Assembly: GCA_021815655.1 (NCBI GenBank)
Contig: JAKAGJ010000021.1
Coordinates: 1-10,702 of the forward strand
From: Deltaproteobacteria bacterium
GTDB taxonomy: Bacteria > Desulfobacterota > Desulfarculia > Desulfarculales > Desulfarculaceae
Length of the DNA stretch: 10,702 nt
Direction: 5' to 3'
Shown here: piece by piece, positions 492 to 10,702 of the stretch
Layout: each line of letters begins with the position of its first letter
Numbering within the stretch: position 1 is the stretch's first letter
Notes under the pieces: generated by a model
What the model was told of the DNA's origin: nothing
Seen by the model: the letters and a program-made list of their open reading frames with translations, nothing else
Databases searched by the model: none
Program-made: the position numbers and the translations under genes

Positions 492-1121
492 TTAGACCTC
501 CCCGCACAGTTCGGCCAGGGCGTTTATGACGCTGGCCGCCACCGCCGAGCCGCCCTTGCGCCCCACGGCGGTAATGAATGGCTGGCTGGTGGCGGCCAGA
601 GCCGCCTTGGCCTCGGCGGCATTGACAAAGCCCACCGGCAGCCCCACCACCAGGGCCGGCTGGGCCTGGCCCGCCCGCACATGCTGGAGCAATCTATACA
701 GGGCCGTGGGAGCGTTGCCCACCACGTAGATGGCGCCCTCCAACTCTGGCAGGGCCAGGTCCACGGCGGCCAGGGCGCGGGTGGTGCCCCGCTCGACGGC
801 CAGCCGGGCCACCTGGGGGTCGTCCATCAGACAGCGCACTCGCGCGCCAAAAGGCGCCAGCCTTCTTTGCGAAATGCCGGCCTGGGCCATGCGCGTGTCG
901 GTGAAGACGGTCGCGCCGGCCTTGAGGGCCGCCAGGCCACTGGCGATGGCCTGGGGATGCATGCGCACGCTCTCCACCCAGTCGAAGTCGGCGGTGGTGT
1001 GGATCATGCGTCGGATGATGCGCCAGGCCTGGGGCGGCCAGGCATGGGGCGGAGCCTCGGCCTCGATGATTCCCCAACTCAGGCGCTCGATCTCCTGGGG
1101 AGGCAGGTTCCAGTCAGTCAT
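492..1121 (-). CDS. cbiC: Precorrin-8X / cobalt-precorrin-8 methylmutase
   Basis: This enzyme moves the C11 methyl group to C12 to give (cobyrinate) hydrogenobyrinate, the last step of corrin macrocycle formation. The 209-residue product is of normal family length. RRMIHTTADFDW contains the conserved catalytic His (residue 41) followed by the TAD motif. VVGNAPTALYRLL (133-145), VGLPVGFVNAAEAK (159-172) and GRKGGSAVAASVINAL (187-202) are the other conserved blocks of CobH/CbiC. I chose the ATG at 1121 because it forms an ATGA overlap with the cbiA stop and has AAGGA about 7 bases upstream. A GTG at 1154 would add 11 residues that do not look like the family. The gene is translationally coupled to cbiA and followed at once by cbiL. 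Confidence 0.93.
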   Translation of the reverse strand: MTDWNLPPQEIERLSWGIIEAEAPPHAWPPQAWRIIRRMIHTTADFDWVESVRMHPQAIASGLAALKAGATVFTDTRMAQAGISQRRLAPFGARVRCLMDDPQVARLAVERGTTRALAAVDLALPELEGAIYVVGNAPTALYRLLQHVRAGQAQPALVVGLPVGFVNAAEAKAALAATSQPFITAVGRKGGSAVAASVINALAELCGEV

Positions 1122-2503
1122 GAGGTTATCCTTGTGGCGTTGGTGCGGCAGCACTCCACCAGGGCCGGGGCCAGGGCGGGGTTGCTGCCGAAGTGTAGAT
1201 GCACGTAGCTGGCCAGAACATTGCCGCGCAGATAGCCCCGGCAGTCCGGCTCGGGGCCGCGGCGGCCGGTGGCTTGATAGACGTCCTGGTCGGTGGCGGG
1301 GTCAGGCTCCTGGCCGCTGATCTCGGAGTAGTGGAACTCGTGGCCCCGCGCTTGCGCGCCGGCCGGCCCCAGGGGCGTGGGCCTGGTGAGGGTGATTTCG
1401 CGGTAGCCCAGGGAGCGCAGGCGCGGCAGCATGGCGAAGCGCTGGGGCAACAGCCCGGCCATGAGCCAGCGCCGGCTCTCTTGGTCCACCACCTCCCGGC
1501 CCAGGTACATCATGCCCCCGCACTCGGCGTAGATGGGCAGTCCCTGGCGGCCCAGCTGAGCGATCTGGCGGCTTAGACCCTGATTGGCCGACAGGGCCGG
1601 GGCGTGCAGCTCGGGATAGCCGCCGCCCAGGTAGAGGCCGTGCAGGCCCGCCGGCAGTTGGCGCTCGGCCAGGGGCGAGAAGTACACCAGCTCCGCCCCG
1701 GCGGCCTCCAGGCGGCGCAAGTTCTCGGGGTAGTAGAAGCAGAAGGCCTGGTCCCGGGCCACGCCCAGGCGCACGGGCGGGCCGGCGGGCGGCGGCTGGG
1801 GCGCCGGCGGGGCGAGGCCAATCTCGGGCAGGGCCGCCAGCAGGGCGTCCAGGTCCAGGCCCGTTTCCAGCCAGTCGGCCAGGGCCAGGAGCCGGGGCTG
1901 GTCAAAGCCGCCGTCCTCGGCCGTGACCAGCCCCAGGTGACGCTCGGGCAAGGCCAGATCAGGGCGGCGGGGCAGACCGCCCAGGAAGGGCAGTTCCGGC
2001 ACCGTGGACATGGCTTGCTTGAGCAGGGCGGCGTGGCCCACGCCGCCCAAATTGTTGGCCACCAGCCCGGCCCAGGTCAGGCCTGGGTCGAAGCGGGCAA
2101 AACCCTGCGCCAGGGCCGCCAGGCTGCGGGCCATGGCCCGGGCGTCCACGCACAAGAGCACCGGCAGGCCCAGCCATTTGGCCATCTGGGCGCTTGATCC
2201 CTCCTCGGCCACCGGGTCGAAGCCGTCGTAGAGGCCCATGACGCCCTCCACCACGGCCACGTCGCAGCCCTGGGCGTGGCGCGCGAAGATGGCCAGGTTC
2301 TCTTGGCGCGAGAGCATCCAGCCGTCCAGGTTGTGGGAGGGGCGCCCACTGGCCAGGGCGTGGTGGCCGGGGTCGATGAAGTCCGGTCCCACCTTGAAGG
2401 CCTGCACGGCGAGCCCCCGCCGGCGAAAAGCGGACAGCAGGGCCAGGCACAGGGTGGTCTTGCCCGCGCCGCTGTGGGTACCAGCCAGCAGCAAGGCCTT
2501 CAT
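1118..2503 (-). CDS. cbiA: Cobyrinic acid a,c-diamide synthase
   Basis: This ATP-dependent, glutamine-using amidotransferase amidates the a and c side chains of cobyrinic acid. The 461-residue length is typical. The N-terminal synthetase domain opens with the P-loop GTHSGAGKTT (8-17), then KVGPDFIDPGHH (38-49) and VEGVMGLYDG (85-94). The C-terminal class I-type glutaminase domain has LYLGGGYPELHA (290-301) and the nucleophile Cys328 in YAECGGMMYLG. HEFHYS (388-393) and SYVHLHF (432-438), with its His, follow. A Pro/Ala-rich linker (about 231-243) separates the domains. The ATG at 2503 overlaps the stop of the upstream binding-protein gene by four bases, and its own stop overlaps cbiC. The choice of CbiA over CobB rests on the cbi context and the precise substrate is inferred. 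Confidence 0.95.
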   Translation of the reverse strand: MKALLLAGTHSGAGKTTLCLALLSAFRRRGLAVQAFKVGPDFIDPGHHALASGRPSHNLDGWMLSRQENLAIFARHAQGCDVAVVEGVMGLYDGFDPVAEEGSSAQMAKWLGLPVLLCVDARAMARSLAALAQGFARFDPGLTWAGLVANNLGGVGHAALLKQAMSTVPELPFLGGLPRRPDLALPERHLGLVTAEDGGFDQPRLLALADWLETGLDLDALLAALPEIGLAPPAPQPPPAGPPVRLGVARDQAFCFYYPENLRRLEAAGAELVYFSPLAERQLPAGLHGLYLGGGYPELHAPALSANQGLSRQIAQLGRQGLPIYAECGGMMYLGREVVDQESRRWLMAGLLPQRFAMLPRLRSLGYREITLTRPTPLGPAGAQARGHEFHYSEISGQEPDPATDQDVYQATGRRGPEPDCRGYLRGNVLASYVHLHFGSNPALAPALVECCRTNATRITS

Positions 2504-3459
2504 GGCCTGGCCTCCCGGGTGGCGGTCGCGCCGGCGCCTGTGGGATAGAGAAGGGCGTGGATGGCCTCGATGCCCCGCAAGAGGCGCGGGGTGGGGCGGG
2601 AGACCATCTCCTCGTCCACCAGATGCACGCGCCCGTTCCGCACGGCCTTGATGGCCTGGAAGCCGGCCTCGTCTTTTATCTGCTGCACGCTCACCTTGTT
2701 CATGGTGCCCACCTGGGCCAGGTACACATCGATGGTGGACCCCAGGGCCAGGATGCGCTCCTGGCCGTATTGGGCGATGTTGGTGCCGCGCACCGACTCG
2801 GCGTCGCTGGCCACGTTGACCCCGCCGGCGGCGGCCAGCACGAAGGCGGCCATGGAGTCGGGGGCGAAGGTCTTCATCTTGGCGTGGATGGCCTCGAAAT
2901 ACACCCGGGGCCGCTTCTCCAGGGGCAATCCGGCCCAGCGGGCCTGGATGGCGGCCAGCCCCTGCTGGAAGCTCTTGACCATGGCCTCGGCCTGGGCCTC
3001 ATGTCCACCCAGTTGGCCCAGGCGGCGCCAGTAGGCGTACATCTCCTGCACGTTGTTGGGTTGCAGACTGACCACGGCTATGCCGGCCTGCTTCAGGCGG
3101 TCCACCAGGGCGCGGTGGCCGCGATAGACCATGGGGCGGATAAGCACCAGGTCGGGCCGGGCGGCCAGGAAGCGCTCGGGGTCGTCGCGGTAGCTGAAGA
3201 CGGGTTTGCCTGAAGCGGCCGGCGGCTCGGTTTCGCCGGGGCTGACGCCGATGATGGCCCTCTCCAGGCCCAGGGCGTAGAGGTTTTCGGTGTGGGCGGG
3301 GTAGAGGCTGATGATGCGCTTGCAGGGCGCCTGGATATTGATGACCTGACCTGAGTCGTCCACAAAGGTCTGGCCGGCCCAGGCCGTGAGGGCGGGCCAG
3401 ACCACGAGCAAGGCCGGCAGCAGGACCGCCAGGCCCCAGGACAGGGAGTGCCTTCTCAT
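2500..3459 (-). CDS. btuF: BtuF-type periplasmic substrate-binding protein of a corrinoid/metal-complex ABC importer
   Basis: This 319-residue protein begins with a clear Sec signal peptide: MRRH, then a hydrophobic stretch ending in AWA, with likely cleavage near residue 28. The mature start GQTFVDDSGQVINIQAPCKRI and IISLYPAHTENLYALG are typical of the PF01497 family that captures vitamin B12, siderophores or haem. FLAARPDLVLI and AGIAVVSLQPNN follow in the usual order. No lipobox Cys is seen at the cleavage site, so it is probably soluble in the periplasm. It sits between the ATPase gene and cbiA with ATGA overlaps at both ends. That context argues for a corrinoid (or a cobalt complex) as ligand, but iron-complex binders of the same family look alike, so the symbol is a context-based assignment. 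Confidence 0.8.
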   Translation of the reverse strand: MRRHSLSWGLAVLLPALLVVWPALTAWAGQTFVDDSGQVINIQAPCKRIISLYPAHTENLYALGLERAIIGVSPGETEPPAASGKPVFSYRDDPERFLAARPDLVLIRPMVYRGHRALVDRLKQAGIAVVSLQPNNVQEMYAYWRRLGQLGGHEAQAEAMVKSFQQGLAAIQARWAGLPLEKRPRVYFEAIHAKMKTFAPDSMAAFVLAAAGGVNVASDAESVRGTNIAQYGQERILALGSTIDVYLAQVGTMNKVSVQQIKDEAGFQAIKAVRNGRVHLVDEEMVSRPTPRLLRGIEAIHALLYPTGAGATATREARP

Positions 3460-4256
3460 GCCGCGCCTCCGCGCTTGTCAAAGACCACCACCCGCGCGCC
3501 GGCGAAGTCGTCCCAGGCCACGCGGGCGCGCACCCCGAAGACCTCTTGCAGGCTGCCGCTCTCCAGCACCTGGGCGGTGGGGCCGGCGGCGTGCAGGCGG
3601 CCCTGCTTGATGAAGACCAGGTGGTCGCAGAAGGCCGCGGCCAGGTTGAGGTCGTGCATCACCGCCAGCACCGTGCGCCCGCCTTGCCGCACCCGGGCCT
3701 CGGCCACCCGGAGCACCGCCAGGGCGTGGTTGATGTCCAGGTGGGAGGTGGGCTCGTCCATCAAGAGCACCGGCGTGTCCTGGGCCAAGGCCCGGGCCAG
3801 CACCACCCGCTGGCGCTCGCCGCCCGAAAGCTCAGTCACCAGCTTGTGGCGCAGGGGCGATAGCTCCAGGGCGGCCAGGGCCTGCTCCACCTTTTCTATG
3901 TCGGCCTCGCCGGGGGCGGCGAAGCGGGGGATGTGGGGGTGGCGCCCCATGAGCACCGTCTCGCTGACTGTGAAGGGAAAGCCCAGCGGCATCTCCTGGG
4001 GCACCAGGGCCAGGCTGCGGGCCAGGGCGCGGCGGGGGTAGGCGGCCAGCTCTTGGCCCAGGAAGCTGATGGCCCCGGCCAGGGGCTGGCGCTGACCCAC
4101 CATCAAGTCCAGGAGCGTGGTCTTGCCGCAGCCGTTGGGACCCACCACGCCATAGAAGCGCCCCGGCAGAATTTCCAGCGATAAACCCTCCAGCACCGGC
4201 GGCCCGCCGTAGGCGAAGCTCAGGTCCTTGATCTGGTACACGGCGGTATCAGGCAT
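3456..4256 (-). CDS. btuD: ABC importer ATPase, BtuD/FecE type
   Basis: This is the cytoplasmic ATPase that drives the adjacent permease. The 266-residue chain has all the motifs: Walker A GPNGCGKTT (39-47), Q-loop PQEMPLGF (Gln87), signature LSGGERQRVVLARAL (143-157), Walker B LLMDEPTSHLD (164-174) and the switch His in VMHDLN (His201). I took the ATG at 4256 because MPDTAVYQIKDLSFAYGG matches the family's N-terminus. Upstream in-frame codons run into the permease gene and add low-complexity residues. The start overlaps the permease stop by 8 bases, and its stop overlaps the binding-protein start by four. The tail after about residue 235 (VFGVRARVAWDD) is the usual extension of siderophore/B12-type ATPases. 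The substrate is inferred from context. Confidence 0.88.
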   Translation of the reverse strand: MPDTAVYQIKDLSFAYGGPPVLEGLSLEILPGRFYGVVGPNGCGKTTLLDLMVGQRQPLAGAISFLGQELAAYPRRALARSLALVPQEMPLGFPFTVSETVLMGRHPHIPRFAAPGEADIEKVEQALAALELSPLRHKLVTELSGGERQRVVLARALAQDTPVLLMDEPTSHLDINHALAVLRVAEARVRQGGRTVLAVMHDLNLAAAFCDHLVFIKQGRLHAAGPTAQVLESGSLQEVFGVRARVAWDDFAGARVVVFDKRGGAA

Positions 4257-5295
4257 GGCCGCGCCCCATCTGCCGGCGGCGGAAGACATAGCAGAAGAAA
4301 GGCCCGCCGATGATGGCCGTGAGCACGCCAATGGGCACCTCGTGGGGCAGGACCGCCCGGGTCAAGGTGTCGGCGCCCAGCAGGAGCAGCGCGCCGGCCA
4401 GGGCCGAGGCCGGCAGGAGCACCCGGTGGTCCGGCCCCACCAGGGAACGCATCACATGGGGGATCAAAAGCCCCACGAAACCGATGATGCCCGAGACGGC
4501 CACGCAGACCGCGCTGACCAGGGAGGCGGTTATCAAGAGGGTCAGGCGCACGCGCTTGGTCTGCACCCCCAGGGAGGCGGCGGCCCTGGACCCCAGACAG
4601 AGCAGGTTTAAGTCGCGGGCGTGATAGAGAAACACCAGGAGCCCCAGGAGCCCGGCCCCCAGGGTAAGCGCAAAATCCAGCCAGCCCTTGCTGACCAGGC
4701 TGCCCATGAGCCAAAAAATGATGACCGCCACCTGCTCGTCGGCCAGGTATTTTATCAGCCCGATGCCCGCCGAGAGGATGGCCGCCACGATCACCCCCGA
4801 GAGGATGAGGTTGCCCGGCGCCACCTGGCCATCCTGGGATGCCAGCCAGATCACGGCCAGCAGGGTGAGCACCGCGCCCAGGAAGGCCATGAGGCATACC
4901 GAGTAGGCCCCCCAGAAATCCAGTCCCAGGATTAGGCACAGGGAAGCCCCGAAGGCCGCGCCGGAACTGACCCCCAGGGTATAGGGATCGGCCAGGGGGT
5001 TGAGCAGGATGCCCTGGAAGACCACCCCCGACATGGCCAGGCCCGAGCCCACCACCGCCGCGGTGAGGATGCGCGGCAGCCGCACCTCCCACACCACGTG
5101 GGGCAAGAGTTGATCCAGCCCTTGGGCCAGGCTACCCAGCCCCGGCAGGCGCGCGGCCACCACCCTGAGCACCTGGCCGGGGCTCACGGCGATGAAGCCC
5201 AGGCCGCTGGCCAGCACCACCAGGGCCAGCAGCATAAAGAGCATGACCGGCAGGAGCCAGCGGGGGTTGAGCCTATGGGTGGCGGCGGGTGGCAT
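4249..5295 (-). CDS. btuC: ABC importer permease, BtuC/FecCD family
   Basis: This inner-membrane permease has 348 residues and about ten hydrophobic segments. VRLPRILTAAVVGSGLAMSG (71-90) followed by FQGILLNPLADPYTLGVSSG (93-112) is the diagnostic N-terminal region of the FecCD/BtuC family. VSGIIGFVGLLIPHVMRSLV (about 267-286), which includes the loop contacting the ATPase, and LLLLGADTLTR come near the C-terminus. The ATG at 5295 follows a perfect hairpin whose 3' arm carries the only nearby Shine-Dalgarno-like GGGGA. It ends 8 bases inside the ATPase gene. It works with the next two genes as a homodimeric permease plus ATPase and binding protein. Corrinoid uptake is inferred from the linked cbi genes. 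Confidence 0.88.
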   Translation of the reverse strand: MPPAATHRLNPRWLLPVMLFMLLALVVLASGLGFIAVSPGQVLRVVAARLPGLGSLAQGLDQLLPHVVWEVRLPRILTAAVVGSGLAMSGVVFQGILLNPLADPYTLGVSSGAAFGASLCLILGLDFWGAYSVCLMAFLGAVLTLLAVIWLASQDGQVAPGNLILSGVIVAAILSAGIGLIKYLADEQVAVIIFWLMGSLVSKGWLDFALTLGAGLLGLLVFLYHARDLNLLCLGSRAAASLGVQTKRVRLTLLITASLVSAVCVAVSGIIGFVGLLIPHVMRSLVGPDHRVLLPASALAGALLLLGADTLTRAVLPHEVPIGVLTAIIGGPFFCYVFRRRQMGRGHA

Positions 5296-5344: not shown

Positions 5345-5668
5345 CTAGATCATGGCCTGGCGGGGCGGGGGGATGATGGGGCCCGCTCCGGCCTGCCGCG
5401 TGGTTTGCCAATATTGACGCAGGGCTAAGGCCGCCGGAGCGGCGTCCAAGCGCTCGGCCTCGTAGACCAGCCAACTCACCAGGGGCCTGGTGGGCAGCGG
5501 CGACTGCTCGGCCCGGTTCACCAGTTGCTCGGGAGAATAGCGCAGGATCTGTTCCAGACAACCCCGCAGGGCCACGGCCAACTGCTCCTTGGGGGATTGA
5601 GGGTCCTCCATGGAGGAGGCCAGCTTCTCCATGGTTTCCCAGGCGGCGTTCAACAGAGAATCGCTCAT
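5345..5668 (-). CDS. Small protein of unknown function in corrinoid-transport operon
   Basis: I do not recognise this 107-residue protein. The ATG at 5668 has GGAG six bases upstream; a GTG at 5680 has a poorly spaced site and is less likely. The sequence is mostly helix-forming, with an acidic, amphipathic N-terminal half (MSDSLLNAAWETMEKLASSM) and KEQLAVALRGCLEQIL. A short Pro/Gln-rich tail (PIIPPPRQAMI) ends it. It has no signal peptide or membrane segment, and its single Cys lies near residue 37, so it is probably a cytoplasmic soluble protein. It begins 16 bases after the outer-membrane barrel gene and ends 49 bases before the permease, so it is very likely co-transcribed with both. Codon use resembles its neighbours. 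The reading frame is well supported; the function is unknown. Confidence 0.7.
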   Translation of the reverse strand: MSDSLLNAAWETMEKLASSMEDPQSPKEQLAVALRGCLEQILRYSPEQLVNRAEQSPLPTRPLVSWLVYEAERLDAAPAALALRQYWQTTRQAGAGPIIPPPRQAMI

Positions 5669-5684
5669 GTCGTTCTCCACGTTC

Positions 5685-6476
5685 CTAGAAGGAGTAGGTC
5701 AGGGTCAGCCCCCAGAAGCCCTTGTCGTCGTAGCCGAAGGCGTCCTTGATGGCGCTGTCCATGAGCCACATGTGGGTGTAGGAGGGCGTGACGGTCAGGG
5801 CGTCCTTGATCTTCACGGCCAGACCCAGGGTCAGGCTGGTGTCCAGGAAGGCGCTTTCATCCACGCCGGCGTTGTAGCGGTACTGGTTGTAGTCGCGAGA
5901 GCCCCAGTCCAGGCCGGCGTTGGCCAGCAGGGAGACGGCCACCGCCTGGTGGGGCTTGTACACTTCCTCGTTGACGCACAGGTTCAGGTTCACCAGTTGG
6001 CCGTGGACGTCGCCCACGTCCTGATAGACCTTGAGGGTGGGGGTGACCAGCCACTTGTAGGAGATGCCGGCGTAGAGCTCGGTGGTGGTGGGCTGGGTCA
6101 TGTTGGGATAGAGGTAGTGGACCACGCCCACCGGGAAGCTGAAGCCGCCGGCCTCGAAGGCGTATTCGCCGGTGAGGTCCACCTCGCTGAACTTGTTCTT
6201 CTTGCCGATCTTGTCGGTCAGGTTGTAGTTGCCCCAGACGTTGAAGGCAAAGCCGTAGCCGGCCAGCGTCACGCCCGGTTGCAGCACCGGGTCGTCCACG
6301 GTCAGGGCTCCCCGCGAGACATACCGGCTGTAGTAGGGCAGGGTGAGGTCCACGGACCAGGCCTTTACGTCGCTCTCCTTTAGGCTGGTGCCCTCCTCGG
6401 CGGCCGAAACGTGGGCCGGCAGGGCCAGGGCCGCCAGCACGAGGGCGTAGGCGAGGGCTTTCTTGGTTCCACTCAT
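5685..6476 (-). CDS. Putative outer-membrane beta-barrel protein (TorF-like porin family)
   Basis: The 263-residue product starts with a signal peptide (MSGTKKALAYALVLAALALP, likely cleaved after AHVSA, about residue 25). The mature part is made of alternating polar/hydrophobic strands with many Tyr, Trp and Gly, and it ends in GLTLTYSF. A C-terminal Phe of this kind is the usual BAM-recognition end of outer-membrane barrels. YYSRYVSRGALTVDDPVLQPG resembles the opening strands of TorF/CHP02001-type putative porins. There is no plug domain or TonB box, so it is not a BtuB-type receptor. The second ATG (6476) is chosen because GGAG lies seven bases before it; the first ATG (6482) is only one base from it. 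It heads the corrinoid-transport operon, suggesting a passage for corrinoids or metals, but this is inference. Confidence 0.75.
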   Translation of the reverse strand: MSGTKKALAYALVLAALALPAHVSAAEEGTSLKESDVKAWSVDLTLPYYSRYVSRGALTVDDPVLQPGVTLAGYGFAFNVWGNYNLTDKIGKKNKFSEVDLTGEYAFEAGGFSFPVGVVHYLYPNMTQPTTTELYAGISYKWLVTPTLKVYQDVGDVHGQLVNLNLCVNEEVYKPHQAVAVSLLANAGLDWGSRDYNQYRYNAGVDESAFLDTSLTLGLAVKIKDALTVTPSYTHMWLMDSAIKDAFGYDDKGFWGLTLTYSF

Positions 6477-6694
6477 CGTCATTCTCCGCTATGGCACATG
6501 GTGGTTTGCTGGAGGGCGCGGCCTTTTGACCGGCCCCTCCCTCGGGGCCGGGCGGGCGGGCGCCCGGCTCATTGTTCGCCCTTCAGGGCGCCTGGCTTCT
6601 GAATATGGACTATGAGGCGGCGCGGGCCGCCGGCCGCTGCGCCGGCCATGGGATGGGGCGGGGAGGTGCCTCCTTCGGGATGGCGTTGACCCGC
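6477..6694 (-). other. Long GC-rich leader of the corrinoid operon with several hairpins
   Basis: This stretch contains no convincing gene. On the minus strand it holds, in order: GGAGG-CA-CCTCC (6662-6673); GGCGGC-CCGC-GCCGCC (6616-6631); CGCCC-TGAA-GGGCG with a tetraloop (about 6577-6590); CCGGGCG-6-CGCCCGG (about 6550-6570); and CCGGCCCC-6-GGGGCCGG (6530-6551). None is followed by a T-run. I searched by eye for the conserved cobalamin-riboswitch core and did not find it. One short piece, GAAGCCAGGCGCCCTGA (about 6582-6598), only vaguely resembles its 3' part. The region may be a regulatory leader or part of the feo operon's 3' end. Confidence 0.35.
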
Positions 6695-6763: not shown

Positions 6764-6982
6764 CTACTTGCCCAAGCCGCGGGAGGGGCATCCCGAGGGC
6801 GGCGGCGCCCCTTCTTGGGCCGCGGGGCAGGAGCCGCAGGAGCAGTCCTGGAGGGCCTCAGGGTCGGCGTCCCCGCCGCAGCCGCAGGCCGGGCCTCGCC
6901 CCTGCACGGCGCGCCACAGGCGTCGGGCCAGCCACAGGGCCGCCAGACCCACCACCAGCACCACGATCAGCGTCTGCCACAT
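6764..6982 (-). CDS. FeoB-associated Cys-rich small membrane protein
   Basis: The 72-residue product has one N-terminal membrane helix (MWQTLIVVLVVGLAALWLAR, about 3-19) followed by a basic stretch (RRLWRAVQGR). A cytoplasmic-type Cys-rich tail follows, with Cys33, Cys35, Cys47, Cys49, Cys52 and Cys65 (CGCGG, CSCGSC). This matches the small Cys-rich proteins found just after feoB in many anaerobes, thought to assist FeoB, perhaps by handling Fe2+ or sensing redox state. The ATG at 6982 is firm: AAGGAG lies seven bases upstream, overlapping the end of feoB. An in-frame start at 7096 would lie within feoB and break the membrane-first layout. The Pro-rich end (GAPPPSGCPSRGLGK) is longer than usual. 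It is not the winged-helix FeoC of enteric bacteria. Confidence 0.82.
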   Translation of the reverse strand: MWQTLIVVLVVGLAALWLARRLWRAVQGRGPACGCGGDADPEALQDCSCGSCPAAQEGAPPPSGCPSRGLGK

Positions 6983-6996
6983 GGTCAAGCTCCTTC

Positions 6997-9141
6997 CTAG
7001 CCCAGGCCCAGCAGGCGGCCGCCCTGGTAGACCAGCAGCGCCAGCAGGTAGGCCACCAGGGTGTGGTGCAGCATGGCGAACAAGGGCCAGCGCCAACCGC
7101 CGGTCTCGCGGCGGATCACGGCCAGGGTGGCCACGCAGGGCGAGTAGATCATCACGAAGATCATCAGGGCGAAGGCGGCCAGGGGCGTCCAGCCCGGGCT
7201 GGCGGCCAGGCGCTTGGCCAGGGGCTCGGCGTCCACGCTCTTCTTGGCGCCCTGGCCCAGGCTGTAGGCCGTGCCCATGGTGGAGACGATCACCTCCTTG
7301 GCCGCCAAGCCGCCCACCAGGGCCACGTTGGTGCGCCAGTCAAAGCCCAGGGGATCGGTGACCACGGTCAGCACCCGCCCCAGGCGGCCGGCCACGGTGG
7401 CCGAGAGCTCGGCGGCGGCCCGCTGGTTGGCCACTTCCTGGCGTTCCTGGTCGCTTTGAGCCTGGGCGGCCAGGCGCTCGTAGCGGGCGGCCTGCTGGGC
7501 GTCCAGGCCGGGAAAGCTCATCAGCGCCCAGACCACCAGGCTCACGGCCAAGAGGATGGTGCCGGCCTTCTTGACGTACTGCCAGGTGCGTTCCCAGGTG
7601 TGGATAAAAAGACCCTTGAGGGTGGGGGTGCGGTAGGGCGGCAGCTCCATGACAAAGGGGGCCTGGCTGCCCTTGAGCAGGGAGGAACGCAACAGCCGCG
7701 CCGCCAGGAGGGCCACGCCCCAGGAAATGATGGTCAGGGCGAACATCACGTCCGCCTGGCGGTGGGCGAAGAAGGCGCTGATAAGAAGGCTGTAGACCGG
7801 CAGCTTGGCCCCGCAGTTCATGAAGGGCACCACCAAGATGGTGGCCAGGCGGGCCTGGGGGTCCTTCAAGGTGCGCGTGGCCATCACCGCCGGCACCGCG
7901 CAGCCGCCGCTGATGCCGCCGCCCACGATGAGGCTTATCACCGAGTTGCCGTGCAGGCCGAAGGCCCGAAGCAGGCGGTCCATGAGGTAGGCCATGCGGG
8001 CCATGTAGCCCGAGTCCTCCATGATGGCGATGGCGAAGAACATGAACATGATGAGCGGCACGAATCCCAGCACCCCGCCCACGCCGTCTATGACGCCGCT
8101 GACGATGAGCGAGCGCAGGATGCCCTCGGGCAGAGTCGCCTCCACGGCGCCGCCCAGCCAGCCGAATAGCCGCTCGAACCACTCCACCGGGGTCTTGCTG
8201 GCCCAAAAGACGAACTGGTAGACGCCGTAGAGCACTCCCAGCAGAAACAGCGGCCCGATGAGCCGGTTGGTCAGCACCCGGTCCACCTTGTCGCTGAAGT
8301 CCATGCGCACCTCGCGCTCCAGGACCAGGGCCTGGCGGGCGATGGCGCTGATGAAGCCGTAACGGTAGTCGGCGATGACGCTCTCGGGCTCGTCATCCAG
8401 GGTGGCTCGCATGTGCTCGCTCAACCGTTGACAAACCGGCAGTATCTGGCCGGCCAGGGCTTGGTTCTCGCGCACGCGCTCCATCACCTCGCTGTCGCCC
8501 TCCAGGCACTTCAAGGCCAGCCAACGCGCCGAGAGAAGCCCCTGGCGGGGGGTGGCGCCCTCCAGGAGGGCGGCCAGCTCGCTTAAGCCCTGGTCCACGT
8601 CCGCGCCGTAGGAGATGTTCAGAGGCTTCCACTGGGGGTGCTGGGAGCCCAGCAGCACGGCCTGGCGCAGAAGCTCCTGCACGCCCTGGCCGCTGCGGGC
8701 CACCAGGGGCACCACCGGCAGGCCCATCAACTGCGAGAGCTTGGCCACGTCGATCTTCATGCCCCGCTGCTCGGCCACGTCCATCATGTTCAGGCCGATG
8801 ACCAGGGGCACGCCCAGCTCCATCAGCTGCACGGCCAGGTAGAGGTTGCGCTCCAGGTTGGAGGCGTCCACCACGTCCACCACCACATCGGGGCGGTCGC
8901 CGATGAGGTAGTTGCGCGCCACCAGCTCCTCCAGCGAATAGGCCGTCAGGCTGTAGGTGCCGGGCAGGTCCACGATCTTCACCGCCTGGCCGTCCAGGCG
9001 GGCCTCGCCTTCCTTCTTGTCCACGGTGACGCCGGGATAGTTGCCCACGTGCTGGCGCGCGCCGGTGAGCGCATTGAACAGGCTGGTCTTGCCGGCGTTG
9101 GGGTTGCCGGCCAGGGCCACGATAAGCTGCGCCTGGCTCAT
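6997..9141 (-). CDS. feoB: Ferrous iron transporter FeoB
   Basis: This is the inner-membrane Fe2+ transporter with an N-terminal G-protein domain, 714 residues from the ATG at 9141. The GTPase motifs are GNPNAGKTS (12-20, G1), NYPGVTVDKKEG (switch I/G2), DLPGTYSL (58-65, G3) and NMMD (118-121, G4, where most G proteins have NKxD). A helical spacer follows, then the membrane part with two Gate motifs: GCAVPAVMATRT (413-424) and NCGAKLPVY (442-450), whose Cys is conserved in FeoB pores. The C-terminal helices end in ALLVYQGGRLLGLG. GGAG lies eight bases before the ATG. A GTG at 9150 would overlap the feoA stop as GTGA and add three residues, and cannot be excluded. The gene is fifth from the right, between feoA and the Cys-rich helper. 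A Fur box upstream of feoA suggests iron repression. Confidence 0.97.
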   Translation of the reverse strand: MSQAQLIVALAGNPNAGKTSLFNALTGARQHVGNYPGVTVDKKEGEARLDGQAVKIVDLPGTYSLTAYSLEELVARNYLIGDRPDVVVDVVDASNLERNLYLAVQLMELGVPLVIGLNMMDVAEQRGMKIDVAKLSQLMGLPVVPLVARSGQGVQELLRQAVLLGSQHPQWKPLNISYGADVDQGLSELAALLEGATPRQGLLSARWLALKCLEGDSEVMERVRENQALAGQILPVCQRLSEHMRATLDDEPESVIADYRYGFISAIARQALVLEREVRMDFSDKVDRVLTNRLIGPLFLLGVLYGVYQFVFWASKTPVEWFERLFGWLGGAVEATLPEGILRSLIVSGVIDGVGGVLGFVPLIMFMFFAIAIMEDSGYMARMAYLMDRLLRAFGLHGNSVISLIVGGGISGGCAVPAVMATRTLKDPQARLATILVVPFMNCGAKLPVYSLLISAFFAHRQADVMFALTIISWGVALLAARLLRSSLLKGSQAPFVMELPPYRTPTLKGLFIHTWERTWQYVKKAGTILLAVSLVVWALMSFPGLDAQQAARYERLAAQAQSDQERQEVANQRAAAELSATVAGRLGRVLTVVTDPLGFDWRTNVALVGGLAAKEVIVSTMGTAYSLGQGAKKSVDAEPLAKRLAASPGWTPLAAFALMIFVMIYSPCVATLAVIRRETGGWRWPLFAMLHHTLVAYLLALLVYQGGRLLGLG

Positions 9142-9146
9142 GGGGT

Positions 9147-9380
9147 TCACTCCACTTCCACGATGATATGGTCGGCCTCGTTGTTGCGCAAAGTCAGGTT
9201 GTAGCCCCGGAGCTTGATCTCCACCGGGTCCTTCAAGGGCGCCCGTCCGATGACCTTCAGGGGGGTGCCGGGCACCAGGCCCATGTCGCGCAGGCGACGG
9301 CCCAACTCGCCGCCGGTGGTCACCTTGGCCACCACGGCGCTCTGTCCGGGGGCCAAATGCCGCAGGGATATGGTCTGCAT
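9147..9380 (-). CDS. feoA: Ferrous iron transport protein FeoA
   Basis: This 77-residue SH3-like cytoplasmic protein is thought to act with FeoB at its G-protein domain. MQTISLRHLAPGQSAVVAKV, GELGRRLRDMGLVPGTPLKV and DPVEIKLRGYNLTLRNNEAD follow the family from end to end. The ATG at 9380 gives the normal length and has AAGAG and GGAG just upstream. A TTG at 9410 would start inside the candidate Fur box and add a non-family leader, so I rejected it. It begins 84 bases after the fur-feoA stop, behind a terminator, and ends five bases before the feoB ATG (overlapping if feoB starts at GTG). It is therefore the first gene of its own feo transcript. Confidence 0.94.
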   Translation of the reverse strand: MQTISLRHLAPGQSAVVAKVTTGGELGRRLRDMGLVPGTPLKVIGRAPLKDPVEIKLRGYNLTLRNNEADHIIVEVE

Positions 9381-9400
9381 ACTCTTGCTACTCCAAAACA

Positions 9401-9424
9401 GCAATTGCAACTCAATTGCAATTA
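9401..9424 (-). promoter_or_regulatory. Candidate Fur box upstream of feoA
   Basis: Within an AT-rich patch, TGCAACT-C-AATTGCA (9406-9420) forms a 7-1-7 inverted repeat with one mismatch. This is the same geometry as the classical TGATAAT-n-ATTATCA Fur box but with different bases. The surrounding 24 bases match the site upstream of fur-feoA (10210-10233) at 21 positions. A -10-like AATAAT (minus strand, 9421-9426) lies directly before it, which would put the box over the transcription start. No convincing -35 was found. Confidence 0.6.
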
Positions 9425-9430
9425 TTGGCC

Positions 9431-9453
9431 ATAATAAAAGGCCCGCGCGGGCC
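9431..9453 (-). terminator. Intrinsic terminator after fur-feoA
   Basis: On the minus strand GGCCC-GCGC-GGGCC (9440-9453) is followed at once by TTTTATTAT (9431-9439). It starts 11 bases after the fur-feoA stop and separates the regulator from feoA. The stem is only five base pairs but entirely GC. Confidence 0.7.
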
Positions 9454-9464
9454 GTAATTGCCTC

Positions 9465-10166
9465 TCAGGCCGCCGCAGTGCCGCAGCCGTTGTTCACATG
9501 GCTGACCAGGACCTTTTGGGCCGCGCCGCGCCCCAGGGCCACCCGGCAGCCCTTGACCGCGATGACCATGTTGCCGCCGCCGGAGCTTATCACCTCCAGC
9601 TCGCTGCCCAGTTGCAAACCCAGGTCCTGGAGCTGGCAGGCCAGCCCTTGGCCGCCGGCCAGGCGCTCCACGCGCAGGCGCTCGCCCGGGGCCGCCAGGG
9701 CCAGGGGCAGGGAGGGCTGGCGGGAGGCCAGGCACTCCTGGCACAGGCCGTAGATGTGCAGGGCGTGGCGCAGGGGATGAAAGCCCTGGGACCGGGCCAC
9801 CTTCTGTTGCAGGGCCTCCAGGTCGGGATCGTGGAATTCGTGGATGGAACCGCAGCGGGTGCAGATCAGGTGGTCGTGGTGCTCGCCCAGATGGCGGTGC
9901 TCGTAGCGCGGCGGCCCTCCCTCAAACTCCCGGCGGGTAGCCAAGCCGAAGCGGGTAAGCAGGTCCAGGGTTTGGGCCACGAAGGAGGGCTCCAGGTCCA
10001 CCCCGCCGGCGGCCAGCAGCCGCTGGCAGTCGCTGGCGCTCATATGACCCTCGTGACCCAGGAAGGCCTGCAACACCGCCAAACGGTCGGCCACGCGATC
10101 CACGCGCTGCTGGTGCAGCAGGCGTTCGAACTGCCGGCTCTCTTCTTGGTGCAGGACCTGGTTCAA
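9465..10166 (-). CDS. Fur-family regulator with C-terminal FeoA domain
   Basis: This 233-residue protein joins two families. Residues 1-150 are a Fur-type repressor: an N-terminal winged helix (RVADRLAVLQAFLGHEGHMS, 24-43), GLATRREFEGGPPRYEHR, then the metal region HHDHLICTRCG with Cys102 and Cys105 and LCQEC with Cys142 and Cys145, the structural zinc ligands. Residues 154-222 are a FeoA/SH3-like domain (APGERLRVERLAGGQGLACQ, LQDLGLQLGSELEV, MVIAVKGCRVALG). Fur proteins are normally about 140-150 residues, so the extension is a true fusion; no stop or frame change separates the parts. The start is TTG at 10166, with AGGGAG eight bases upstream; the next in-frame ATG would delete part of the DNA-binding domain. 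It lies upstream of feoAB with its own terminator and probably represses itself and feo when iron is plentiful. The role of the fused domain is inferred. Confidence 0.9.
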   Translation of the reverse strand: MNQVLHQEESRQFERLLHQQRVDRVADRLAVLQAFLGHEGHMSASDCQRLLAAGGVDLEPSFVAQTLDLLTRFGLATRREFEGGPPRYEHRHLGEHHDHLICTRCGSIHEFHDPDLEALQQKVARSQGFHPLRHALHIYGLCQECLASRQPSLPLALAAPGERLRVERLAGGQGLACQLQDLGLQLGSELEVISSGGGNMVIAVKGCRVALGRGAAQKVLVSHVNNGCGTAAA

Positions 10167-10190
10167 CGGCTCATCTCCCTGGTTGGCGCA

Positions 10191-10219
10191 AGCCTACCAG
10201 AGGGGGCATGCAATTGCAA
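10191..10219 (-). promoter_or_regulatory. Candidate promoter of fur-feoA
   Basis: TTGCAA (10214-10219) and TAGGCT (10191-10196) are spaced by exactly 17 bases on the minus strand. They match the sigma-70 consensus at four and three positions. Transcription would start near 10184, giving a leader of about 18 bases that still contains the AGGGAG ribosome-binding site. The -35 lies within the candidate Fur box, as expected for autorepression. Confidence 0.4.
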
Positions 10220-10233
10220 CTCAGTTTCAATAA
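10210..10233 (-). promoter_or_regulatory. Candidate Fur box upstream of fur-feoA
   Basis: TGCAACT-C-AGTTTCA (10215-10229) is a 7-1-7 inverted repeat with one mismatch (TGCAACT against TGAAACT). The 24-base segment matches the feoA-upstream site at 21 positions and overlaps the candidate -35 element. It is one of only two obvious AT-rich patches in the right half of the window. Confidence 0.6.
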
Positions 10234-10304
10234 AATCCGGTAACGCCCCCCGTAGACTGAAGATAAGTCCGGCGGGGCGGGAGGCAAGAGGCGGCGGGCA
10301 GGTC

Positions 10305-10399
10305 GGAGGCATCCCTCGGCCTAACCGCTTGTCGCCGCGCGCCCTGGGCAGCGGGTTGTCCAGGTCACCCAAGGCAATGAAGTTCCCCGCCGAGCCTCC
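10305..10399 (-). ncRNA. Possible structured RNA between the TusA-like gene and fur-feoA
   Basis: On the minus strand GGAGGC and TCGGC (10389-10399) pair with GCCGA and GCCTCC (10305-10320) as an 11-bp stem interrupted by a five-base bulge. Inside, CCTTGGG (10368-10374) pairs with CCCAGGG (10342-10348). One of these pairs is G-U on the minus strand but would be a C-A mismatch on the plus strand, which favours minus-strand transcription. No known riboswitch or RNA family was recognised. A stem of this size could arise by chance in such GC-rich DNA, so this is a weak call. Confidence 0.2.
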
Positions 10400-10432
10400 C
10401 CTGACGCTTCCTCTGGCCGCGCCGGCCCAGCC

Positions 10433-10681
10433 CTAGCCTCTTTCGCCTCCGCCCCGGGCCAAGAGCAGGCTGTAGCCCTGGGCGCCCTGGCGGCAGTGCA
10501 GGCAGCGGTCGCCACCCCGGCGCACGATGACGGGCAGGTCGCGGGCCCAACAGGGGCTGGTCAGCCGGACCTCCAGCTGCTGGCCGGGGGCGAGAAGGGC
10601 CAGGGCCCGGCGCACCAACAGGGGCAGCACCGGCGAGTCGCCGTCGCGCAGGTCCAACAGTAGCGGGTCAGGGCTGGTCAT
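10433..10681 (-). CDS. TusA/SirA-like small protein lacking the catalytic cysteine
   Basis: The 82-residue product follows the TusA fold: LLLDLRDGDSPVLPLLVRRA (8-27), LLAPGQQLEVRL (29-40), SPCWARDLPVIVRRGG (42-57), and a closing strand SLLLARGG. True TusA proteins carry the CPxP motif whose Cys relays persulfide sulfur. Here the aligned position is Ser16 (SPVLP), so ordinary sulfur transfer through it is unlikely. Three other cysteines exist: Cys44 and the pair CLHC (Cys60, Cys63), which could bind metal or form a disulfide. The ATG at 10681 has AGAGG nine bases upstream; a GTG at 10699 would add six residues. After the stop there is a GC hairpin (about 10412-10430) without a T-run. A link to the iron genes is unproven, since 266 bases separate them. 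Confidence 0.65.
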   Translation of the reverse strand: MTSPDPLLLDLRDGDSPVLPLLVRRALALLAPGQQLEVRLTSPCWARDLPVIVRRGGDRCLHCRQGAQGYSLLLARGGGERG

Positions 10682-10702
10682 GGTCTTGATCCTCTGCACC
10701 GC

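Follow-up and report, generated by a model that had tools for sequence, protein, structure and literature searches.

Does a Fur protein that carries a FeoA domain and lies beside feoA and feoB still read DNA, or does it serve the FeoB transporter itself? The question is raised by a frame in the 10,702-nucleotide stretch of Desulfarculaceae DNA analyzed here as a whole (the window). Our answer, which we favor tentatively and with somewhat less than even confidence, is that the sequences describe a Fur-derived iron sensor that would have lost sequence-specific DNA reading and would act on FeoB via its FeoA domain.

The fusion gene, its neighbors and its relatives

A sequence-only reading of the window had described a Fur domain continuous with a FeoA domain, the latter foreign to ordinary Fur, with two CxxC zinc pairs and with feoA and feoB alongside. 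This description was borne out. Both domains lie in a single open frame and exceed their Pfam cut-offs (FUR, 80.9 bits against 23.1; FeoA, 52.5 bits against 23), both zinc pairs are present (C102/C105 and C142/C145), and feoA and feoB follow downstream on the same strand (Table 1). A join of two genes by sequence error is ruled out by separate database entries (P0002-P0007), which are full length at 233 aa and 80-91% identical to the window protein; the same-genus genomes G001-G005 likewise contain the whole fusion frame without stops.

Table 1. Features of the fusion locus (window coordinates)
Feature	Position	Strand	Details and basis
Fur-FeoA fusion gene	9465..10166	-	233 aa, TTG start; one open frame
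FUR domain (PF01475), residues 27-139	9750..10088	-	Pfam, E 1.1e-22
FeoA domain (PF04023), residues 154-222	9501..9707	-	Pfam, E 5.1e-14
Recognition helix, residues 60-72, PSFVAQTLDLLTR	9951..9989	-	helix from AlphaFold model and alignment
Palindromic Fur-type box before fusion gene, TTGAAACTGAGTTGCAATT	10212..10230	-
Palindromic Fur-type box before feoA, TTGCAATTGAGTTGCAATT	9403..9421	-
Terminator-like hairpin between fusion gene and feoA, GGCCCGCGCGGGCC + TTTTATTA	9440..9453	-
Separate feoA (PF04023)	9147..9410	-	Pfam, 80.4 bits
feoB, 717 aa (TIGR00437)	6997..9150	-	profile match, 593 bits
Possible FeoB-associated Cys-rich membrane protein	6764..7096	-	16.7 bits, under Pfam cut-off 27

Judged by eye, the ATG at 9380 is the more likely true start of the separate feoA. 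Two terminator-like hairpins were found in 9100-10702, with 0.9 expected by chance; the second overlaps the box before feoA.

The AlphaFold model of the fusion protein (mean pLDDT 89.1, pTM 0.57) is confident in the winged-helix core and in the strands of the FeoA part, which has an SH3-like fold. The pTM and the weaker stretches at residues 91-100 (pLDDT 75) and 131-150 (pLDDT 78-80) mean that the model leaves the mutual arrangement of the parts open. The best Foldseek matches in the PDB were Fur-family structures (MgFur, H. pylori Fur, PerR and others; E ~1e-9). When the C-terminal domain was compared with solved chains at E≤0.5, four of the five matches were of FeoA type, two of them at E≤4e-5, and the fifth was ribosomal L21; the absence of any DtxR, IdeR or MntR chain among them speaks against the convergence on a DtxR/MntR-like design that the sequence-only reading had proposed. 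Pfam searches of the fusion protein at E≤0.01 yielded neither DtxR-type DNA-binding or dimerisation domains nor a match to the FeoC profile (PF09012), and no Rfam family reached its gathering score in the window.

Elsewhere on the minus strand, the window contains a cobalamin cluster (492-5295) with CbiC (PF02570, 255.5 bits), a periplasmic binding protein (PF01497) and a FecCD permease (PF01032), in which frames 1118-2503 and 3456-4331 resemble, by eye, CobB/CbiA and an ABC ATPase. A Gcw_chp protein (PF09694, 38.7 bits against 24) is encoded at 5685-6482, beside a frame at 5345-5680 with no Pfam match, and a small TusA-like protein (27.6 bits, Pfam cut-off 28.6) lies upstream of the fusion at 10433-10699.

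A protein search returned 264 relatives at E≤1e-10, and 119 of the 120 listed carry both Pfam domains. With a profile of diverse members, the number of matches at E≤1e-15 was 1591; both domains were present in each of the 120 listed, and ordinary Fur may be included in the rest. With the FeoA part alone as query, 22 proteins were found, one of which (P0121) has FeoA only, and the 21 two-domain proteins were all already among the relatives listed from the whole-protein search. Rows shorter than 190 aa were removed before the two protein alignments (2 of 120 and 2 of 236).

Genome searches covered one phylum (297 genomes) and the window's family (20 genomes). A full-length match was present in 17 of the 20 family genomes, one with a stop flagged. 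Across the phylum, a match spanning both domains (E≤1e-51) occurred in at least 52 of the 297 genomes, from 28 families as counted by hand; one of the 52 matches has a stop flagged and one reaches only position 198. In a contig scan, the best 80 of 538 relatives all hold the fusion, under record titles that include Desulfarculus, Desulfobacterales, Desulfobacteraceae and Thermodesulfatator, among others; these 80 loci were retrieved by a pattern containing HHDHLICT, which preselects part of the metal site. As the Fur-FeoA family itself served as the query for relatives, an independent fusion with an intact Tyr-Arg pair (see below) could be missed. Duplicates were removed before the 110 fused domains and 110 fusion frames considered below were counted.

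A tree was built from 65 of the 110 fused domains (the window's, those from L104 onward and 35 drawn at random) and 22 ordinary Fur sequences, two of them identical. The fusions formed one side of a branch with an SH-aLRT value of 93, obtained by a quick method on few columns, and a single origin of the Fur-FeoA fusions appears likely from these sequences.

Five loci (L124-L128) have an unfused ordinary fur followed by an in-frame feoA gene, adjoined by feoB in L125, L126 and L127; this order is possibly the ancestral one. Stop-codon readthrough was considered for the TAG-interrupted matches in G118, G178, G298, G317 and G199 and rejected, as these are ordinary fur genes followed by a separate feoA gene in frame. 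The database names of several relatives, 'transcriptional repressor' or 'Fur family ferric uptake transcriptional regulator', may be wrong for these fusions.

Metal ligands and DNA-reading residues of the Fur core

For comparison with the 110 non-redundant fused Fur domains, the fetched loci supplied 20 ordinary Fur proteins. The residues that we take, by alignment, to be the Fur metal ligands are almost fully retained in the fusions: E89, H97, D98 and H99 in all 110, H41, E110 and H134 in 109 each, and E117 in 101, with Asp in a further six. Each of the four zinc cysteines is present in 110 of 110. Loci L104-L107, which came from the family genome search and hence lie outside the HHDHLICT retrieval, have the same ligands except for Asp at 117. 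Two additional histidines, H90 and H92, occur in 105 and 104 of the 110 fusions versus 8 and 1 of the 20 ordinary Fur domains. Among the latter, 15 of 20 have Cys in place of Asp in the HxH metal motif (HHCHLRC versus HHDHLIC); loci with ordinary Fur of this type are L034, L038, L052, L064, L065, L084, L103, L108, L120, L122 and L123.

The DNA-reading side is changed. At positions 64-65, which presumably correspond to Tyr56/Arg57 of Magnetospirillum Fur by alignment with ordinary Fur and by the Fur motif, the window protein has Ala-Gln where ordinary Fur has Tyr-Arg. The Tyr-Arg pair is found in none of the 110 fused domains (Tyr in 0, Arg in 3) versus 20 of 20 ordinary Fur domains, a result at odds with the plain repressor with a tuning domain that the sequence-only reading had pictured. 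Only one of 233 database proteins with letters at both positions has the pair, namely P0032; the individual counts, Tyr in two (the first position of P0063 among them) and Arg in eight, each include P0032. This entry combines a C-terminal half identical to the window's with the N-terminal half of an ordinary Fur on a 1423-base contig, switches at or just before the HHDHLIC stretch, and is probably an assembly chimera. For Magnetospirillum Fur, the results given in PMC4506495 include very weak DNA binding after exchange of the Tyr for Ala and none after exchange of the Arg for Ala.

The comparison was repeated with matched divergence (mean pairwise identity 0.48 for fused and 0.47 for ordinary domains; 300 resamples of 20 fusions). 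Entropy at the Tyr-Arg positions averaged 2.51 bits in the fusions (rank 0.81, lowest resample rank 0.60) and was 0.00 bits (rank 0.02) in ordinary Fur; the ranks of the metal and zinc ligands were 0.08 and 0.10. Within the 81 nearest relatives of the window protein, the two base-contact positions still had entropies of 2.07 and 2.18 bits (ranks 0.80 and 0.81). The recognition helix has a mean net charge of -1.34 in the fusions (range -5 to +2) and +1.85 in ordinary Fur (+1 to +3); for the DNA-binding domain the values are -3.15 and +2.30. The fusions may still touch DNA to some extent: 88 of the 110 fused domains retain Arg28, by alignment the counterpart of an Arg that never varies in ordinary Fur, and 78 of the 81 nearest relatives have kept Arg24. 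The recognition helix has not simply decayed, since its Phe62 is conserved in 94 of 110. The fusion protein resembles ordinary Fur, such as that of Magnetospirillum, in fold, metal ligands and zinc cysteine pairs, and differs from it by the missing Tyr-Arg pair, an acidic DNA face and the added FeoA domain.

Promoter boxes

The two boxes of the window are 7-1-7 palindromes that fit the pattern TTGMAAYTGAGTTGCAATT. Both sites are conserved in G001, G003, G010 and, more weakly, G002. With up to two mismatches allowed, neither the window's genome (71% complete) nor G001 (99% complete) has such a box outside this locus, a uniqueness that could indicate a dedicated local regulator. Most genomes of genus g4, though fusion-bearing, have no boxes in the locus; in the g4 relatives L114, L117-L119 and L029 the conserved promoter region of the fusion is a different one and has GTTAACGTTAACGTTAA-like repeats at a greater distance upstream. 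The idea of one operator shared by the whole family was rejected: upstream of the fusion gene no palindrome rose beyond chance across 109 loci, the best scoring 5.39 of 7 versus 5.24 after shuffling.

A looser box, TTGNAANTNANTTNCAA, was sought with 0-1 mismatch in 1.46 Mb of loci. Thirty of its 40 sites lay within 160 bases before a fusion gene (14), feoA (10) or an ordinary fur gene (6), versus one of six for the reversed control; three contigs were counted twice, the distinct sites being 11, 7 and 6. Six of 21 ordinary fur genes have the box in front of them, among them that of L127 in G317, a genome with no fusion detected, whose best match to the family profile is this ordinary fur plus feoA. 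According to the footprint described in PMC4506495, ordinary MgFur protects TTAATCGCAACTCATTCGCAATTGC, the feoAB1 operator, which is close to the window's boxes. As the MgFur operator and the boxes before ordinary fur genes belong to the same class, we dropped the window's boxes as proof of self-regulation, and the shared class also counts against the plain repressor of the sequence-only reading. On the simplest reading, ordinary Fur probably represses both the fusion gene and feoAB through TTGNAANTNANTTNCAA boxes. The reader of the boxes may also be Zur-like, because their core equals the Desulfovibrio Zur box ATGCAACNNNGTTGCAT predicted in PMC545781.

Sites like the delta-proteobacterial Fur box given in PMC545781, scoring at or above 95% of shuffles, precede 13 of 53 feoB-linked fusions, 6 of 56 other fusions and 9 of 19 ordinary fur genes. 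The dFUR-like pattern TGAAAATNATTTTCA was counted with up to two mismatches against a reversed control in 12 genomes (pattern/control): G000 5/0, G001 9/1, G002 11/2, G003 7/3, G006 103/21, G007 11/1, G008 7/2, G009 17/5, G010 6/6, G012 9/7, G014 13/10 and G015 11/4.

Linkage to feoB and proposed function

A feoB gene lies within 1.5 kb downstream on the same strand in 54 of the 110 fusion frames; 48 have none nearby despite at least 1.5 kb of contig, and in the remaining 8 the contig ends early. The profile detected a separate feoA in at least 28 of the 54 feoB-linked loci, a lower bound, as those of L031 and L036 were missed. Twelve of the 54 encode Fur-FeoA-FeoA in one frame before feoB: L038 (3005-3970), L043, L047, L050, L061, L066, L071, L073 (second FeoA domain assigned by eye), L082, L089, L134 and L140. 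The second FeoA of these frames is canonical and resembles the window's free feoA, and in 11 of the 12 the feoB frame starts within 100 bases. To judge from these frames, the FeoA encoded directly before feoB is in such species physically tied to the Fur core. The suggestion of the sequence-only reading that the domain might touch FeoB fits these variants and the gene neighborhoods. At the genome level, all 43 fusion-bearing genomes tested (41 of the phylum's 52 plus G006 and G041) had a feoB scoring over cut-off, versus 35 of 42 chosen genomes without fusion, a comparison uncorrected for kinship and involving a gene that is common anyway.

In Bacteroides, FeoA contacts the FeoB G domain in a nucleotide-dependent manner and stabilises the GTP-bound form, as set out in parts of PMC8980893. 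Five positions were matched by eye to the hydrophobic clamp of this FeoA; four of them have hydrophobic residues in 117 or more of the 118 rows, and the first is mostly Ala. The B. fragilis FeoAB protein described there provides a parallel, as FeoA is tied to another part of the iron system and the clamp positions are largely kept; its partner is FeoB, whereas in the window protein it is a Fur core.

The kept metal switch, the variable and mostly acidic DNA face, and a FeoA positioned next to feoB or doubled before it together point to a sensor acting on FeoB. Against this reading stand the 48 frames away from feoB on contigs that run on, the two boxes unique to the locus, as expected of a dedicated regulator, the retention of Arg28, Arg24 and Phe62, and the Ala at the first clamp position. 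Fur-FeoA would be a presumably dimeric Fe(II) sensor and an accessory subunit of the transporter. Cytoplasmic iron would fill the Fur-type sites and change the shape of the protein, and the FeoA domain, docked on the FeoB G domain by analogy with Bacteroides, would pass this change on. The iron-loaded form would then alter the FeoA-FeoB contact and transport; inhibition by iron is our guess. Iron could thus act twice, slowly on transcription through ordinary Fur and the boxes, and quickly on the transporter. We regard it as possible, though still short of an even chance, that a Fur family of sulfate reducers has left gene regulation in this way, keeping its iron switch, losing DNA reading and becoming an iron gauge of the FeoB importer, with direct feedback of cytoplasmic iron on ferrous-iron uptake. 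Such a shift of a metalloregulator from DNA to a transporter would, if true, be unusual. The role of FeoA and the curbing of FeoB at plentiful iron are presented as unsettled in the relevant sections of PMC7762939 and PMC8980893; the natural tie of a known Fe(II) switch to FeoA makes both testable, the more so because the fusion of some species includes the FeoA encoded directly before feoB.

The fused Fur could also be a genuine repressor whose DNA specificity has changed, binding both boxes and tuned by FeoA in the way that SH3-like domains tune DtxR-type regulators. This would account for the conservation of the 7-1-7 boxes at both sites, their restriction to the locus in two genomes and the retained Arg28 and Arg24. 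We nevertheless consider it unlikely: the base-contact positions vary even among the near relatives, the recognition helix is acidic on average, no palindrome exceeds shuffles across the loci, and boxes of this class also stand before ordinary fur genes, one of them in a genome with no fusion detected, and resemble the operator of an ordinary Fur. Alternatively, the protein could be a partner of ordinary Fur, forming mixed dimers through the kept dimerisation domain that weaken or tune repression, with FeoA as FeoB link or stabiliser. Twelve of the 110 fusion frames have an ordinary fur within 700 bases, another Fur, of ordinary type, is encoded on contig C119 of the window's genome, and a Desulfovibrio Fur without DNA-binding domain has been proposed, in the account of PMC545781, to form inactive heterodimers. 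However, the other 98 frames have no ordinary fur within that distance, and the putative mixed dimers would have to join distant Fur domains that fall on separate sides of the tree, which makes a partner role distinctly doubtful. The nearly invariant metal ligands and the additional H90 and H92 would suit a non-regulatory protein that buffers or chaperones iron, receiving Fe(II) from FeoB and delivering it further. Such a protein would have no need of a winged helix, yet the core of this fold is kept, with confidence in the model, and we think this function very improbable.

FeoC, a winged-helix helper of FeoB whose DNA binding is undemonstrated according to the FeoC passages of PMC7762939 and which affects FeoB turnover in the experiments outlined in PMC10710835, may serve as a partial model by analogy; the fusion protein is larger, carries Fur metal sites and gave no FeoC match. 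D. desulfuricans FUR2, treated in PMC545781, is likewise a Fur relative proposed to act without DNA reading; it has no DNA-binding domain, whereas the fusion retains the fold of this domain, with altered residues, and has FeoA in addition. DtxR, IdeR and MntR share the order of a metalloregulator followed by a FeoA-type domain, exemplified by the twin FeoA of PgMntR (PMC4805248), but the fusion has FUR in place of a DtxR-type N-terminal domain, and its DNA-reading residues are lost. A literature search that left subscription papers and preprints outside its scope found no paper on a Fur-FeoA fusion. The string 'Fur-FeoA' appears in three papers, in one of which (PMC4506495) it refers to the complex of Fur with the feoAB1 operator, and the sections of a Feo evolution study (PMC8749426) that mention FeoA with an additional domain include no Fur among these. 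A small FmdB-like zinc-ribbon frame (MPI[YF]EF+C, named by eye) often lies just upstream of the fusion, as in L030, L031, L034, L036, L037, L044 and L060.
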